A stretch of DNA of 46,930 nt from Phycisphaeraceae bacterium. GTDB lineage: Bacteria; Planctomycetota; Phycisphaerae; Phycisphaerales; UBA1924. Position numbers and translations under genes: made by a program. The notes under the pieces are model-generated. The model had not been told where the DNA came from, made no database searches, and saw only the letters and a program-made list of their open reading frames with translations. Each line of letters opens with the position of its first letter. Within the stretch, counting starts at the first letter, position 1. The DNA is taken from positions 1 to 46,930 of the forward strand of contig JAJTHN010000047.1 of the NCBI GenBank assembly GCA_021297895.1. The letters are read 5' to 3'. This document shows, one piece after another, positions 34,237 to 46,905 of the stretch.

Positions 34237-36411
34237 TCAGAACGCCACGCGGCGGTTGTACACCCACCACTCGATCATCAGCACCGCCAGCGCCACCAGC
34301 ACGAGCCACGGCCAGAGACGTCGTGCGCCGAGAGGCTGGGCATCGCCTTGGGCCTGAACGACCTTGCTGGCCAGCGCGATGCTGTCGGCGCTGGCCAGGT
34401 CGCTCTCGGCCGGATCGGCGAGGTTCGCCGCGACGGTGCGGCGGTTGGTTGTGCCATCGGTCGCGTCCTGCGGGCCGGGGGTGCCCTGCCAGGCGAGGGT
34501 GTAGATTCCGACATCGGCCACGGGGCCGAAGTTCACATCACCCGCGTCGCTCTGCACAAGGGGGACTCGCGCGCTGTCGGGCAGGGTCATGGAGATCTCG
34601 CGTGCATCCTGCGGCAGGCGCTGCGTGAGGGTCGAGCCCGGCCGGACGGTCAGGGCGTCTTCGCCGATCCCGCCGCGGGAGAGGTACTCGACGGCCTTGA
34701 CCAGGAAGAGCGGGTACCCGGACTGAAAGACCCAGTTGGACTGGACGGGGTCGAAGGTGGTGATGATCGCGCTGCGTGTAATGTCGGCGGCCTCGATGAT
34801 CAGCGGACCGTCCTGTCCCTCGGCCAGAACGACGGTCGCCCCGCCGACGTTGTCGGGCAGCACGGACTTTCGGCCCTTGTTGACGATGAGGTTCTCCAGC
34901 GATGCGGCGCGGAGGGTCGGGTGATCGCGTCGCCAGTTCAGCGCGACGGTCGCGCCGGCCTCGCCCTGATCGGTCAGACCGAGCGGCGGCGCGGGGATCG
35001 CGCCGAGCACCAGCGAGCGGCCGGGCGGGAGCGTGAGCGTCGGCGTGCCGTCGACCGTCCGCGTGGGGAGCCAGCGGTCCAGGACGACCAGGTCGTACGT
35101 CGCCAGGTCTTTGCTCTCGATGAAGGCCTGCGCCTGTGAGGGCGGGACGACCTGCAGCGGGCGGGCGAGGTTCATGCTGCGGAGCAGACGCGTGAGGAAG
35201 AAGTTGCCCTCGCTGACCATGGCGATGCTCAGCCGGCGCGCGGGCGGCAGGATGACGTACGCGACATCATCAACGCCCAGGGGGTCGGGCAGATCCTCGC
35301 CTGTGAGTGTGCCTTCGGGCAGGCCGACATCCGGATGGCGCAGCTGCACGGTGATCGATGCGCCCTCGGCCCGGGAGAGCTCGAACACCGCGCCGCGGAC
35401 CGACGGGACAAGCGTCTGCACCGCATCGGTGGGTGCCGCGGCATCGGGGCCGGTCGCGCCCGCGGCGGTCACGGTCTGCGCCGCCGGGAGCTCCACCGGC
35501 CGCACCGCGACGACACGCCCGTCGAGCGACAGTTGCACATCGACCGTGCGAGCGCGGCGTGACGTCGATTGCACGGCGACAAAGACGCTCACGCTCGACG
35601 GGGTATTGAAGTCGCGCTCGGCACGCACGCTGACGATGCCCAGGTTCCATGCATCAGACCGGCCCACGCGGTGGTACACGACCTGATCCTCGCGCTGGGC
35701 GCGGATGGTCGAAAGGTCCGGTATCCGACCGTCGCTGAACAGATGGACCAGCGCGCCGCCCTCGGTCTGCTCGTCGAACGTCACGGCCTTCCCGCCCTCG
35801 CGATCGTCGATGTGGATGCGTCGGCGCAGGTGGGCCTTGGCGAGCTTGAAGGCCTCGGCGAAGCTCGACGGGCTGTCCGTCGCGCTGATGTCGTTGATCA
35901 GGCGGCGGAGCTCGGCCTTGCTCGCGGTGAAGGTCGTGAGAATATCGGCGCTGGTGTCAAAGGCGATGAGCATCGCGCGGTCGCCCGCGCTGCCGAGCAG
36001 GCCCGGCTCTTTCATCGCGTCGACCATCTCAAGGGCCTGCGCCTTGGCGCGATCGAGCCGAGTCTGGCGTGCGCGTGGGTCGTCGGGCGAGCCGTCGGTG
36101 CTCTGCATGCTGGCGCTGCGGTCGATGATCAGGACCAGTTCCTGACCGGGCGTCAGCTCGCCGCGGATCTCGGGCTGGGCCAGAGCCAGCAGCGCGCCGG
36201 CCAGGGCGAGCAGCTGCAGCAGCAGGAGGATGTTCCTGCGCAGCCGCTGGAACGGCGCGTTGGCCTGCATGTCCTGGATGGCCTGCTTCCAGAGCAGCGT
36301 GGTGCTGACCTCGACATCGCGCCGTCGCAGTTTCAGGAAGTAGAGGATGAGCAGCGTCGGCACGGCGACGGCCGCGGCGATGCCGGCGAGCAGGGGCGTG
36401 AGAAAGGTCAT
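34237..36411 (-). CDS. BatA-like vWA membrane protein (operon B)
   Basis: A 724-residue protein of the BatA/aerotolerance type. The N-terminal double-helix region (MTFLTPLLAGIAAAVAVPTL and ILLLLQLLALAGALLALAQP) is followed by a vWA domain with an intact MIDAS, DRSAS at 97-101. The middle contains a second beta-rich and GATase-like segment (FIESKDLATYDLVVLDRWLP), and the C-terminus ends in a membrane helix (WPWLVLVALAVLMIEWWVYN) plus NRRVAF. Its ATG overlaps the stop of the DUF58 gene (ATGA at 36408-36411), so translation is coupled. It is a paralogue of the operon A gene at 21516-24269, with a complete MIDAS. Confidence 0.87.
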   Translation of the reverse strand: MTFLTPLLAGIAAAVAVPTLLILYFLKLRRRDVEVSTTLLWKQAIQDMQANAPFQRLRRNILLLLQLLALAGALLALAQPEIRGELTPGQELVLIIDRSASMQSTDGSPDDPRARQTRLDRAKAQALEMVDAMKEPGLLGSAGDRAMLIAFDTSADILTTFTASKAELRRLINDISATDSPSSFAEAFKLAKAHLRRRIHIDDREGGKAVTFDEQTEGGALVHLFSDGRIPDLSTIRAQREDQVVYHRVGRSDAWNLGIVSVRAERDFNTPSSVSVFVAVQSTSRRARTVDVQLSLDGRVVAVRPVELPAAQTVTAAGATGPDAAAPTDAVQTLVPSVRGAVFELSRAEGASITVQLRHPDVGLPEGTLTGEDLPDPLGVDDVAYVILPPARRLSIAMVSEGNFFLTRLLRSMNLARPLQVVPPSQAQAFIESKDLATYDLVVLDRWLPTRTVDGTPTLTLPPGRSLVLGAIPAPPLGLTDQGEAGATVALNWRRDHPTLRAASLENLIVNKGRKSVLPDNVGGATVVLAEGQDGPLIIEAADITRSAIITTFDPVQSNWVFQSGYPLFLVKAVEYLSRGGIGEDALTVRPGSTLTQRLPQDAREISMTLPDSARVPLVQSDAGDVNFGPVADVGIYTLAWQGTPGPQDATDGTTNRRTVAANLADPAESDLASADSIALASKVVQAQGDAQPLGARRLWPWLVLVALAVLMIEWWVYNRRVAF

Positions 36412-37355
36412 TGCACCAGCCCCTTTCTGCGCAGGTAGTCGAGCACGACCACGTCGGGCTGCACGCTGCTGGGGATCGTCTGCATGATGATCTCGCGCGC
36501 GGCACAGAAGTCGCGGAGACGGCTGCAGTACGCCGCGAGCGTCTGCTTGTACTTCTTCAGCAGCGGCGCGGTGATGGTCAGGTCGGTCAGGTCGGCGTCC
36601 TCGCAGTCCTTCAGCCGCAGGTCGCCTGCGATGTCCGGCTCGAGCTCCTGCGGGCTGAGGACCTGCAGCGCGTAGACATCAAACCCGCGGCCGACGAGCA
36701 GCCGCAGACCGGTCTCGTAGCCCTCCTTATGGAAGAAGTCGCTCATGACCAGCATGACGCCCTTGCCCCTGCGAGCGATGGCGATGCGCTTGCAGGCTTC
36801 GGTGAACGACGCGGGGCCGCCGGGCGTGAGCTGGAGCATGAAGCGGCCGAGGTCGGCCAGGCGTCGCCCGCCGCGAAGGTCGCGGACGCTGGACATGAGC
36901 TGCGGCGTTGGCTGGCCATCCGGCCCGAGGGCCAGCCCGGCGATGGCGGTGACGCTGACGCGGTGGAGATTGACCAGCCCGATGTAGCCGAGCGCGACAC
37001 AGAGCCGCTGCATGAGCAGGAACTTGGAAGGCTCGCCGCAGTCGCTTGAGGCGGAGGCATCGATGACGATGTGCAGGGCGAGATCCTCCTCCTCGAGGAA
37101 GAGTTTGAGGAAGAGGCGGTCGAGCCTGCCGAAGATGTTCCAGTCGATGTGACGCAAGTCGTCGCCCACGACGTACTGGCGGTGATCGGCGAACTCAACA
37201 CTCTCGCCGCGGCGCTTGCTGCGGCGTTCGCCCTTCATCTTGCCGGCGAGGACCTTGCGGCTGGTCAGATCGAGGGCGGACAATCGCGCGACGAATCTCG
37301 CATCGAGCAGCTCGTCAAGACGCGTGGGCCGGGTTGGTGTCGTGAGCTTGATCAT
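36408..37355 (-). CDS. DUF58 protein (operon B)
   Basis: A 315-residue soluble DUF58 protein. The signature GESVEFADHRQYVVGDDLRH then IDWNIFGRLDRL lies at 50-81, and the vWA-like domain starts HIVIDASAS with a MIDAS at D99, S101 and S103. Its start codon stands only 5 nt inside the boundary of the inverted-repeat unit at 37361; the frame upstream (LRATL) comes from that repeat and the purine tract, so its original ribosome site was replaced. No good Shine-Dalgarno is present. The gene is coupled to the BatA-like gene by ATGA. Confidence 0.88.
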   Translation of the reverse strand: MIKLTTPTRPTRLDELLDARFVARLSALDLTSRKVLAGKMKGERRSKRRGESVEFADHRQYVVGDDLRHIDWNIFGRLDRLFLKLFLEEEDLALHIVIDASASSDCGEPSKFLLMQRLCVALGYIGLVNLHRVSVTAIAGLALGPDGQPTPQLMSSVRDLRGGRRLADLGRFMLQLTPGGPASFTEACKRIAIARRGKGVMLVMSDFFHKEGYETGLRLLVGRGFDVYALQVLSPQELEPDIAGDLRLKDCEDADLTDLTITAPLLKKYKQTLAAYCSRLRDFCAAREIIMQTIPSSVQPDVVVLDYLRRKGLVQ

Positions 37356-37360
37356 GAGAG

Positions 37361-37391
37361 TTGCACGAAGGCGCGAAGACGCGAAGAAGAG
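37361..37391 (-). repeat. Inverted repeat of the GxxExxY unit, DUF58-side end
   Basis: A perfect 31-bp match to the reverse complement of 38124-38154. After TTGCA it is three 8-bp units (CGAAGGCG, CGAAGACG, CGAAGAAG). The 12-mer CGCGAAGACGCG inside it (37372-37383) also occurs in a REP-like copy at 46755-46766. Confidence 0.9.
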
Positions 37392-37404
37392 GGGAGGGAA
37401 GGGA

Positions 37405-37449
37405 GGAAGAAGAGGAAGAAGAGGAAGAAGAGGACGAAGAGGAAGAAGA
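37405..37449. repeat. Polypurine tandem repeat
   Basis: Five 9-bp units of GGAAGAAGA (one with GGACGAAGA) within an 80-bp purine tract inside the GxxExxY unit. The opposite end of the unit carries a pyrimidine-rich tract at 38065-38123, so the mirror-like pattern is preserved on both sides. Confidence 0.85.
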
Positions 37450-37510
37450 AGAGGAAGAGGAGAACTGGGGACTGAAGACTGGGGAGCAAGTTGGGGTTGG
37501 CGAGAACGTG

Positions 37511-38014
37511 CTATTGGGACGACCGTTGAGATTCGGGGACTGTGTGGTGGGGGGTGGTACTGGGTGGCGCGGCGTTGGGGCGTTGCCAGTGGGTGTTGAC
37601 GACTCGGCGCAGGCCGTCGCGGAGTGTCGCGCAATTGAAGTTCAGGAGCAGACCCAGCGGGAGATTGGCGACGTGGAGGTAACTGATCAACTGGGCGCGG
37701 TGAAGTTCATGGGTCGCCTCCACGGCCTTGAGTTCCAGCACGATCGCCTCGGCGACGATCATGTCGACCACGTGCGTCCCGATCTGGACGCCGCGATGGT
37801 GGACCGGCAGGCGCACCTGACGGGCGAAGGGAATGTGGGCGTGCGCGAGTTCGACGTCCATCGCATGCTCGTAGAGCGATTCGAGAAGTCCAGGTCCGAG
37901 GGATCGATGGACCGCGATGGCGCAGCCGATGACTTCCTGCGCGATCGACTCGATCTCTTCAGGCAGGCCACTCTCGATCCGAAGTTGTCGATCCGAGTTC
38001 AAGTCCATAGCCAA
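37511..38014 (-). CDS. GxxExxY-type PD-(D/E)XK-like protein
   Basis: A 167-residue protein. The defining motif G42-L-L-E45-S-L-Y48 is present, and the nuclease-like core follows: D84 (VVDMIVA), E94-L-K96 in LELKAVEA, and Q108 in AQLISYLHVAN, ending with GLLLNFNCATLRDGLRRVV. This is the GxxExxY/PDDEXK_3 family. Its biochemical role is not established to my knowledge; the fold suggests DNA cleavage. The ATG is at 38014 (ATG 38008 possible). The gene lies within perfect 31-bp inverted repeats and separates moxR from DUF58, in the same orientation as the operon. The 22-residue tail after VV appears variable. Confidence 0.88.
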   Translation of the reverse strand: MAMDLNSDRQLRIESGLPEEIESIAQEVIGCAIAVHRSLGPGLLESLYEHAMDVELAHAHIPFARQVRLPVHHRGVQIGTHVVDMIVAEAIVLELKAVEATHELHRAQLISYLHVANLPLGLLLNFNCATLRDGLRRVVNTHWQRPNAAPPSTTPHHTVPESQRSSQ

Positions 38015-38123
38015 CTCCGCACAGCGCCGCGTGCGATTCCCAAGTCACTGCCCGTTTTCTTCCTATTCACGTTCTCCTTCTGTCTCTCTCCCTTCTTTCT
38101 ATCTTCTTCGTCCTTCCTCTCCT

Positions 38124-38154
38124 CTCTTCTTCGCGTCTTCGCGCCTTCGTGCAA
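38124..38154 (+). repeat. Inverted repeat of the GxxExxY unit, moxR-side end
   Basis: The exact inverse of 37361-37391. It ends 14 bp before the moxR stop codon, so moxR is intact. Its three 8-bp units read CTTCTTCG, CGTCTTCG, CGCCTTCG on the + strand. Confidence 0.9.
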
Positions 38155-38168
38155 TCCGCGCCTTGGTG

Positions 38169-39200
<1,032 letters not shown>

Positions 39201-44016: not shown

Positions 44017-44186
44017 CCGTTCACGCCGCCCGCCCCGGCCCGGCCCTGAGACTGATGCACACCGCGGACGTGGGGGATGAAGCGCCGACTCGTGACCGCT
44101 CCGCTCAGACGGGGCGATGGGCTGTCGCCATGGGTGGAGCGACGCTGCTCTGAGTGTCGCGGAACCCGAGGAAGGCGGCTGGCAGC

Positions 44187-44234
44187 GTGGCAGCGTGGCA
44201 GAGTGGCTCAGTGGCGCAGTGGCAGAGTGGGCGT
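44187..44234 (+). repeat. 8-bp-period tandem repeat, 6 units
   Basis: Six octamers in a row: GTGGCAGC, GTGGCAGA, GTGGCTCA, GTGGCGCA, GTGGCAGA, GTGGGCGT. An inverted block of the same type lies at 44361-44395, so the pair can fold back on itself over about 130 bp. Confidence 0.85.
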
Positions 44235-44360
44235 GGGGGCAGAGTGTGGCCTGGGGAGGTCGGCACTGCGTGCCGACGCATCGGTCCGCGGCCGAGCGTG
44301 ATGAAATGAAGGCCGTGGCCGCGACGTGCGCGGCCCCACGAGCACACGGCCGCTGCCTGT

Positions 44361-44395
44361 GTCACTCTGCCACGCTGTCACTCCGCCACCGCGCC
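44361..44395 (-). repeat. 8-bp-period tandem repeat, inverted block
   Basis: On the - strand it reads GTGGCGGA, GTGACAGC, GTGGCAGA, GTGACA. It is the inverse orientation of the block at 44187-44234. Confidence 0.8.
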
Positions 44396-46147: not shown

Positions 46148-46299
46148 TTGCCGTGTTCCGGTGGTTTGCAAGGGTGTCCGAGCACAGCCCTTGCCGCGCC
46201 GCCGGCAAGGGTCGTATGCCCGAAGCGGGCGCGTGGGCTGGGGCGGCGGCGGGGCGGTCCGGGCGGCCGAACGGGCACGCCGGGGGTGCGACGGACGGC

Positions 46300-46446
46300 T
46301 CCGGGCGTACGGCAAATGAGTCCGGGCGTGCGGCAGAGGTCTTCGGGCGTACGACAAATGAGTCCGGGCGTACGGCAGAAGCCTTCGGGCGTACGACAGA
46401 GGACTCCGGGCGTACGACAGAGGACTCCGGGCGTACGACAGAAGTC
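46300..46446. repeat. Tandem repeat, 7 x 21 bp
   Basis: Seven head-to-tail 21-bp units begin at 46300, 46321, 46342, 46363, 46384, 46405 and 46426. Each starts TCCGGGCG or TTCGGGCG and carries CGTACG (CGTGCG in one) at its centre, then GCAAATGAG, ACAGAGGAC or a close form. An incomplete eighth unit (TCCGTACGCCCC) follows and a degenerate one precedes. There are no unique spacers. Confidence 0.93.
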
Positions 46447-46637
46447 TCCGTACGCCCCTCTTGAAAAGGCCGATGTTCCGCGAACGCGGCGGGAAGTGAC
46501 AGCGAACGGCGGCGAAAATGTGGTAAAAAGTCGTGAAAGTTCGGGACTTGCCGAGGGGAGGGCTCAGGCTGTGTGGGGCGGCGGTGGGGTTGGGTTTCGA
46601 TAGGTTCGGGTACGGATGGGCGGGAGGACCTCTCTTC

Positions 46638-46812: not shown

Positions 46813-46873
46813 CCTTGCCACTCCGCCACTCTGCCACTGCGTCACTGCGCCACTCTGTCACTGCGCCGCTCGG
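46813..46873 (-). repeat. 8-bp-period tandem repeat, about 7 units
   Basis: On the - strand GCGGCGCA, GTGACAGA, GTGGCGCA, GTGACGCA, GTGGCAGA, GTGGCGGA, GTGGCAAG. It is the longest block of this family. Confidence 0.85.
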
Positions 46874-46905
46874 TCCGCCGCGTCTCCGCCCTAAACTTGC
46901 CTCTT

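Follow-up and report, generated by a model that had tools for sequence, protein, structure and literature searches.

An inverted word-array unit with a GxxExxY nuclease-like gene in a moxR operon and its counterparts across prokaryotic phyla

The unit between moxR and DUF58

A unit of 794 bp lies between moxR and DUF58 in a 3.48-Mb genome of 84 contigs. It occupies positions 37361-38154 of contig C14, within the window, i.e., the whole 46.9-kb stretch of DNA that was analyzed. The features of the locus are the following:

36408 to 37355, minus strand: DUF58 gene, downstream neighbor and one wall of the slot (likely ATG at 37355)
37361 to 37391, plus strand: left inverted end, 31 bp, heptamer form CRCGAAG; read directly, found as an inverted pair and recurring in the genome
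37373 to 37471, plus strand: purine tract extending from the left end into the unit, read in the sequence
37511 to 38014, minus strand: GxxExxY gene (TTG start at 38014 or ATG at 38008), predicted to encode a small RecB/Cas4-like PD-(D/E)XK protein
38070 to 38134, plus strand: pyrimidine tract mirroring the left purine tract, read in the sequence
38124 to 38154, minus strand: 31-bp right inverted end, inverse to the left one without mismatch
38169 to 39200, minus strand: moxR (AAA ATPase), a host gene, upstream neighbor and the other wall of the slot (stop at 38169)

Each end of the unit contains three octamers, CGAAGGCG-CGAAGACG-CGAAGAAG. An earlier note on this DNA had described perfect 31-bp ends with three octamers each around a single GxxExxY gene, which direct reading and protein profiles confirm. 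Its coordinates are correct, as are the distances of 14 bp from the unit to the moxR stop and 5 bp to the likely ATG of DUF58, and the purine and pyrimidine tracts that it had noticed at the ends could be located as listed above. Extended without gaps, the arms comprise 68 nt at 82% complementarity, the longest among the 81 inverted pairs in the window, and the locus reaches an inverted-repeat score of 40.5. No Rfam family matches within the unit. A further gene of the operon is presumably BatA.

The GxxExxY protein

The gene matches the profiles PF13366 (PDDEXK_3; E 5.3e-38, 130.4 bits, cut-off 22) and TIGR04256 (GxxExxY; E 1.2e-37, 128.9 bits, cut-off 35). PF13366 is the sole match among the Pfam profiles, with no HUH Y1 transposase, and the library lines of the two profiles give no ends, repeats or function. 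The motifs follow the order GxxE...D...ExK...QxxxY, the last of which is also called the RecB motif. Five residues, E43 (of GxxE), D82, K94, Q106, and Y110, do not vary across 27 sequences, and E92 is kept in at least 90% of them, a pattern repeated in 33 other sequences. We take the D, ExK, and QxxxY residues to be the PD-(D/E)XK active site.

A structure model of the protein (pLDDT 87.9) suggests an alpha-beta nuclease-like fold. Its top structural match is Cas4 SSO0001 (Z 7.8, rmsd 3.5, 101 aligned residues), a Z below 8 being weak when taken alone. The structural match lists are headed by Cas4, restriction-like and lambda-type exonuclease chains at modest scores (best Foldseek E 0.04), and a sequence search of the PDB returned one match that is not meaningful (E 0.47). 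The protein is predicted to be a RecB/Cas4-like PD-(D/E)XK nuclease. The likeness to the RecB, Cas4, and lambda-exonuclease nucleases lies in the predicted fold and the D...ExK...QxxxY residues; in contrast to those systems, the unit includes no helicase or CRISPR partner and is bounded by its own repeats. Of the 294 genomes in the phylum of the window, presumably Planctomycetota, 139 contain PF13366, and GxxExxY relatives are present across many bacterial and archaeal phyla.

The window's word in its own genome and family

At up to three mismatches, the genome contains 19 copies of the 23-bp end core, compared with a single occurrence of a reversed control pattern. Two of the 19 are the window's own ends, and the other 17 are spread over 11 contigs, none of them round another GxxExxY gene. 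The word forms four complete inverted pairs (on C14, C22, C35, and C81); contig C49 starts inside a purine tract, and the remaining ends have no partner within the stretch read, two lying close to a contig end. Of the 12 regions examined in this genome, 11 have purine tracts on the inner side of the ends, the exception being C70. The C22 and C49 units enclose paralogous ORFs with 74% identity over 229 residues and no match above the Pfam cut-off (at best 17.1 bits for the C22 ORF, cut-off 25), and no clear gene is enclosed by the pairs on C81 and C35.

PF13366 is represented in this genome by two genes, that of the window and a divergent one on C79 (L026, C79:15053-15397; 73.9 bits) without inverted ends. 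A PF13366 match is found in 99 of 100 genomes of the family, many of which have just one, of about 75-90 bits. The divergent type thus looks like a near-universal, single-copy core gene of the family.

Other candidates were considered as owners of the window's word. The stretches read round the ends in this genome hold no four-helix-bundle gene, and the genome's own gene of that type was rejected as it carries other words. A RAYT was also rejected, the single good Y1_Tnp gene having palindromic repeats of its own. This Y1 transposase gene (L027, C71:143723-144067), 0.6 kb from one copy of the window's end on C71, is adjoined by palindromic repeats of the type GCCCCAGCGGGGC and constitutes a separate REPtron-like locus.

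Allowing up to two mismatches, the window's word is found in 15 of the 100 family genomes, its own genome counted. Many of these matches come from tandem arrays of CACGAAGG, and a four-helix-bundle gene adjoins one such array (G359). Another genome, G360, holds 28 matches at the same stringency, and its own word-ended GxxExxY gene bears other words than the window's.

Inverted word arrays around GxxExxY genes

To score ends in general, the left and right 350-bp flanks of a gene were compared as inverted repeats, with a threshold of at least 16. The phylum of the window provided 140 distinct GxxExxY genes after removal of 10 duplicate hits, 134 of which have full flanks (6 with short flanks were left out). 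Inverted ends are present at 104 of the 134, compared with 30 of 600 mismatched flank pairs, 0 of 30 MoxR genes and 12 of 600 random windows. Nine divergent genes among the 134, classed as core-like, all score 11.5 or less. In f50, a second family of the phylum, 17 of 27 GxxExxY genes have inverted ends (1 of 28 was left out).

The pattern extends to other phyla. In a set made from the best 80 of 587 confirmed stretches, from which 3 with short flanks were left out, inverted ends occur at 57 of 77 genes against 98 of 600 mismatched pairs, the latter rate being high because words are common to several loci. This set includes Chloroflexota, Acidobacteria, Verrucomicrobia, Bacteroidetes, Proteobacteria, Cyanobacteria, Methanothrix, Methanophagales, and more; as it was seeded with GLLES-type proteins, the GFLE clade is under-sampled. 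Three CRCNRAG heptamers are found in 117 of 179 arms, and 268 of 289 intervals between heptamers measure 8-10 bp (8 bp in 124, 9 bp in 111, and 10 bp in 33). Both the end read and the word census give direct heptamer arrays with no GTAG-preceded palindrome. The window's unit is one case of a general pattern across bacterial and archaeal phyla. The expectation that other GxxExxY genes would be bounded by similar inverted arrays is borne out by the genes of the phylum, of f50 and of the best 80 stretches, and the opposite outcome, most such genes lacking flanking repeats, did not appear among the 134. At least four genes in the moxR slot have no detectable ends (L145, L181, the first copy of L184, and L194).

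Genomes rich in ends tend to have the gene. Among the 294 genomes of the phylum, 57 are end-rich, with four or more period-8 ends and a count above twice that of the control. A PF13366 match is found in 49 of these and in 90 of the 237 others (Fisher p 3e-11, uncorrected for kinship), while 8 of the 57 have no PF13366 match whatever.

The purine-rich arms are low in complexity, and the arrays could in principle be an artefact of chance or composition. The reversed-pattern, mismatched-flank, MoxR, and random-window controls refute such an origin, to which we assign a negligible probability.

An old slot and its occupants

Twenty moxR loci of the family, that of the window included, hold GxxExxY in eight cases (one broken) and other content in five. 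In the remaining seven there is no GxxExxY and DUF58 lies 27-92 bp from moxR, measured between aligned parts. Relatives with moxR directly beside DUF58, which the earlier note had proposed to look for, therefore exist. The alternative that it had named, the same gene and repeats at this locus in all relatives with no other copies, does not agree with 8 of 20 loci and 17 further places of the word.

When PF13366 hits of about 95 bits and more are counted, plus six lower ones as controls, GxxExxY lies in the moxR slot of at least 30 of the 100 family genomes, and it is found in this slot in other genera as well. The moxR-DUF58 interval is an old slot, and a recent, unique insertion at moxR was rejected because so many genomes share the occupant. 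The proposal of a clean recent insertion consequently stands in part: the unit does sit between intact walls, whereas the slot is old and its occupants form nearly a single clade. The 36 moxR-operon proteins, which include copies after DUF58, are nearly one clade among 107 (3 changes against a shuffled mean of 30, 0 of 500 shuffles), in a tree of few columns and many unresolved forks. All 36 copies found read in the operon direction. Orientation of neighbors by longest ORF recovered 17 of 33 known co-directional cases and, being too noisy, was not used.

Elsewhere the sites are diverse. The 131 PF13366 genes compared are distributed over 65 sites, of which 50 were seen once; moxR-DUF58 accounts for 30 genes, a second site for 14, and a polA-like-adjoining site, the place after DUF58 and the core-like type for 5 each.

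Among nine same-genus pairs at the same site, six keep an alignable gene. In the other three, the cores align over 0, 31, and 80 bp between flanks that are 81-91% identical, and the words differ. The pair L142/L184 aligns at 69% over 310 bp with a short BLAST word and is also a sister pair in the tree test. Sisterhood of L133 and L154, which occupy the moxR slot in the same genus, is rejected (AU p 0.0057); in two other replacement candidates it is not (p 0.134 and 0.12), and these two may instead have diverged fast. One pair thus supports replacement of the occupant, and two others are compatible with it. At the moxR slot of G360, whose walls are 84% (moxR) and 76% (DUF58) identical to those of the window, an inverted pair of the window's words encloses a different ORF with a weak, sub-threshold DUF2310 match.

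Two further observations concern gene content. In G298, from another family, a GxxExxY gene (L085) follows a moxR-DUF58 pair that is 45% and 34% identical to that of the window. In the f50 genomes, intact PF13366 genes are accompanied by many fragments and by copies with stop codons, a picture of high birth-and-death rate.

Gene-less ends and tests for mobility

Word arrays also occur without the gene. Gene-less hairpins of 101-103 bp are found in G133, G073, and G209, with words like those of the GxxExxY ends of the genus, and a 23-mer of the G133 gene unit, CACAGAGGCGCAGAGGCACAGAG, recurs exactly at two more places in G133, one of them a hairpin. A gene-less hairpin with GxxExxY words upstream of a groEL-like gene is common to three species (L362, L370, and L366, at about 1497-1608). 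Three hairpins fold as single-stranded DNA with z of -6.1 to -7.1. The names groEL, dnaJ, and polA used here for neighbor genes were assigned from translations and are presumably correct. G209 combines 13 end matches with a single PF13366 match (3.7e-22), which we classed as core type. Ends without the gene, which the earlier note had anticipated, are accordingly present at the 17 further word places of its own genome and as hairpins in other genomes.

Empty sites were sought in genus g24 for four G133 stretches. For a solo end (L371), both flanks are found in G073 without the end, the junction itself aligning badly. For L377, G023 alone has both flanks, separated by about 970 bp of other sequence. 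Of the remaining two stretches, one had its search obscured by a repeated domain, and the other had no match. In L128, the unit's right end and the start of a dnaJ-like gene are tandemly doubled in the right flank after 2932; the first gene copy is broken, as if the end had been copied along with its flank.

The unit has terminal inverted repeats as do classical TIR transposons and insertion sequences, from which it differs in the lack of target-site duplication. Among 101 elements, target-site duplications of k=4 number 9 compared with 9.3 in shuffled data, and there is no excess at k 3-8. Together with the lack of a base-level empty site for the window's copy, this result does not support the earlier suggestion that the unit moves as such. 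With one query protein, GxxExxY was found on 7 of 72,556 plasmid records and 0 of 50,697 phage records, a search in which distant clades may be missed. Plasmids and phages are therefore not evident vehicles of the gene.

Such scarcity on plasmids would suit an ordinary repair nuclease that is kept vertically, its arrays serving as regulatory binding sites and the dispersed copies being decayed or secondary. The slot-specific lineage (3 changes, 0 of 500 shuffles) and the six of nine same-site, same-genus pairs with an alignable gene are further points in its favor. Patchy presence, decayed copies and fragments, words that differ in one slot within a genus between flanks 82-91% identical, and the rejected sisterhood of L133/L154 argue against it, and we consider this explanation very improbable.

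Words track the protein

The relation between words and protein was followed in 179 elements, those with an inverted-repeat score below 14 being left out. The similarity of the ends rises with that of the proteins (rho 0.41, 15,867 between-genome pairs, 0 of 200 permutations). The same holds for the 64 cross-phylum elements alone, drawn from the best 80 of 587 stretches (rho 0.22, 0 of 500 permutations). The 64 within-genome pairs are not more alike in their ends (0.380) than pairs between genomes (0.421). A host-genome-specific repeat caught by chance was therefore rejected.

One residue appears to go with the words. Leu in G(L/F)LE accompanies RAG words in 163 cases and GAT/GAA words in 0, and Phe accompanies GAT/GAA words in 12 and RAG words in 1. 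This count leaves out 9 unclear words (L or F), 2 cases with residue M and 12 with no motif match, and its classes were set after the words had been seen. As the association comes partly from one clade and was classed post hoc, it is a lead and not a code. Both the covariation and the residue-word association can partly reflect common descent of gene and ends. The two results support the protein-repeat link that the earlier note had proposed.

These data also bear on whether the ends are moved by another machine, either a RAYT/HUH enzyme or host recombination, with GxxExxY as the commonest cargo of a cassette-like slot. The different ORF within the window's word pair in the G360 slot, the pairs of the own genome that enclose other sequence (ORFs on C22 and C49, no clear gene on C81 and C35), and the one good Y1_Tnp gene in that genome are consistent with this scenario. 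The Y1_Tnp gene (L027) is adjoined by palindromic repeats of different sequence, however, and covariation of protein and word across phyla is not expected of a passive cargo. We regard this scenario as distinctly unlikely.

Comparison with known systems

The REPtron, in which a TnpA_REP gene is accompanied by REP, iREP, or BIME repeats (PMC8266576), offers a close parallel. According to the REPtron and REPIN-RAYT papers (PMC8266576, PMC8049555), those systems share with the GxxExxY units inverted repeats that flank the gene and also occur as dispersed, gene-less, hairpin-forming doublets; in both, protein and repeat covary, the gene is low in copy number and rare on plasmids, and repeats are also present in genomes without the gene. 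In contrast, the REPtron enzyme is an HUH tyrosine enzyme and the repeat a GTAG-tagged palindrome, while GxxExxY is a predicted PD-(D/E)XK nuclease and has about three heptamers in direct array at each end. Since the HUH enzyme and GTAG palindrome are absent, the unit was not filed as a REPtron. The likeness to REP systems is one of logic only, as the earlier note had put it, because the ends are direct word arrays and not GTAG palindromes.

By analogy, the closest physical likeness appears to be the intervening sequence of 23S rRNA. In Coxiella, according to its description (PMC4990558), this sequence is removed by RNase III and three tandem heptamers precede its S23p ORF. Like the GxxExxY unit, the intervening sequence in that account has a single small ORF and inverted ends within about 0.4-0.5 kb (PMC4990558). 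The described intervening sequences lie inside 23S rRNA and encode S23p, a four-helix bundle (PF05635), whereas the window's unit lies between moxR and DUF58 and its PF13366 gene has another fold. PF05635 (23S_rRNA_IVP) genes themselves stand between inverted word arrays at 24 of 27 loci, compared with 7 of 300 mismatched pairs (set L202-L231, 3 of 30 short loci left out). The words of these arrays differ: TAGTTGT, GGTTCGTAGG, GGTCAGGG, and CAAGAACT.

This likeness raises an RNA-level or regulatory device, in which the arms would pair in the transcript, RNase III would remove the GxxExxY stem and the words would be kept for RNA structure or autoregulation. The RNA fold of the unit (z -6.15 against 20 shuffles, with an outer helix of 30 pairs), the excision of the Coxiella sequence by RNase III with its three tandem heptamers (PMC4990558), and the operon direction of all 36 moxR-operon copies found are in line with it. 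It does not explain why hairpins and single ends without the gene occur at other places of the genome or why the words track the protein, and seems unlikely to us.

No GxxExxY unit with repeats was found in the literature searched, which excluded bioRxiv and most subscription journals and names the family only in passing. The REPIN, REP, and intervening-sequence literature searched has nothing on GxxExxY, and the word sequences gave an unrelated mention only.

A candidate two-part element

The explanation to which we give somewhat better than even chances is a REPtron-like partnership, in which the nuclease and its cognate end arrays form a two-part, minimal, selfish or half-domesticated element. 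Such an element would consist of a small RecB/Cas4-type PD-(D/E)XK nuclease and inverse ends, typically of three CRCNRAG heptamers spaced 8-10 bp apart. The nuclease may recognize its own word array, most likely as the hairpin that both inverted arrays would form in single-stranded DNA, and nick or cut at the array. Host repair or replication would then copy the array into new intergenic places, and gene-less hairpins and solo ends would be its non-autonomous offspring. The gene would stay mostly in a few operon slots (moxR-DUF58, groEL/dnaJ-side, and polA-side), where it would be long inherited, decay and occasionally be replaced by a relative with other words.

A nuclease acting on its own array, with copying by host repair, would account for ends that track the protein and for gene-less hairpins, also in genomes lacking the gene. 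It would likewise account for the lack of target-site duplication, the scarcity on plasmids and the absence from phages as searched, and for a mainly resident gene with some turnover. Recognition, cutting, copying, and selfish benefit are what we infer from the observed association, its breadth, the covariation, the gene-less hairpins, the occupancy of the slot, and the one rejection of sisterhood. Several results count against the explanation: the 8 end-rich genomes with no PF13366 match, the abundance of the window's word in G360, whose word-ended GxxExxY gene bears others, the slot genes with no detectable ends, the lack of target-site duplication, the alignable gene in six of nine same-site pairs, the two replacement candidates in which sisterhood is not rejected, the scarcity on plasmids and in phages as searched, and the part of the covariation that may come from common descent.

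A wider reading, to which we give a little less than even chances, is a broad prokaryotic class of "word-array" mini-elements with at least two unrelated proteins (GxxExxY and S23p). Their words would be clade-specific (RAG or GAT words, depending on whether Leu or Phe adjoins the Glu of the motif), their hairpins would replicate, and many orphan repeats would be offspring. If this were true, short inverted repeats that lack an explanation in environmental genomes would in large part descend from the class.

GxxExxY proteins are small and common. If protein and arrays form a single unit, prokaryotes would broadly possess a replicator that resembles REPINs but relies on an unrelated enzyme of nuclease type, many orphan inverted repeats would gain an owner, and the old riddle of the 23S rRNA intervening sequence would be tied to a general class. 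The possible DNA-reading code of residue and word would then be directly testable with a small protein.

Other repeats in the window

The window contains a second kind of inverted word array, at 44180-44211 and 44357-44388, with 32-nt arms at 84% and GTGGCAG/AGTGGC words. An array of this type is also found at 46817-46881, and similar words occur on contig C79 (L025, 806-983). Close to the contig end, at 46238-46468, lies a tandem repeat of a 21-bp unit (e.g., CCGGGCGTACGACAGAGGACT) with about 11 units. Arrays of about 21 bp are apparently also present in the C22, C35, C49, and C79 regions.
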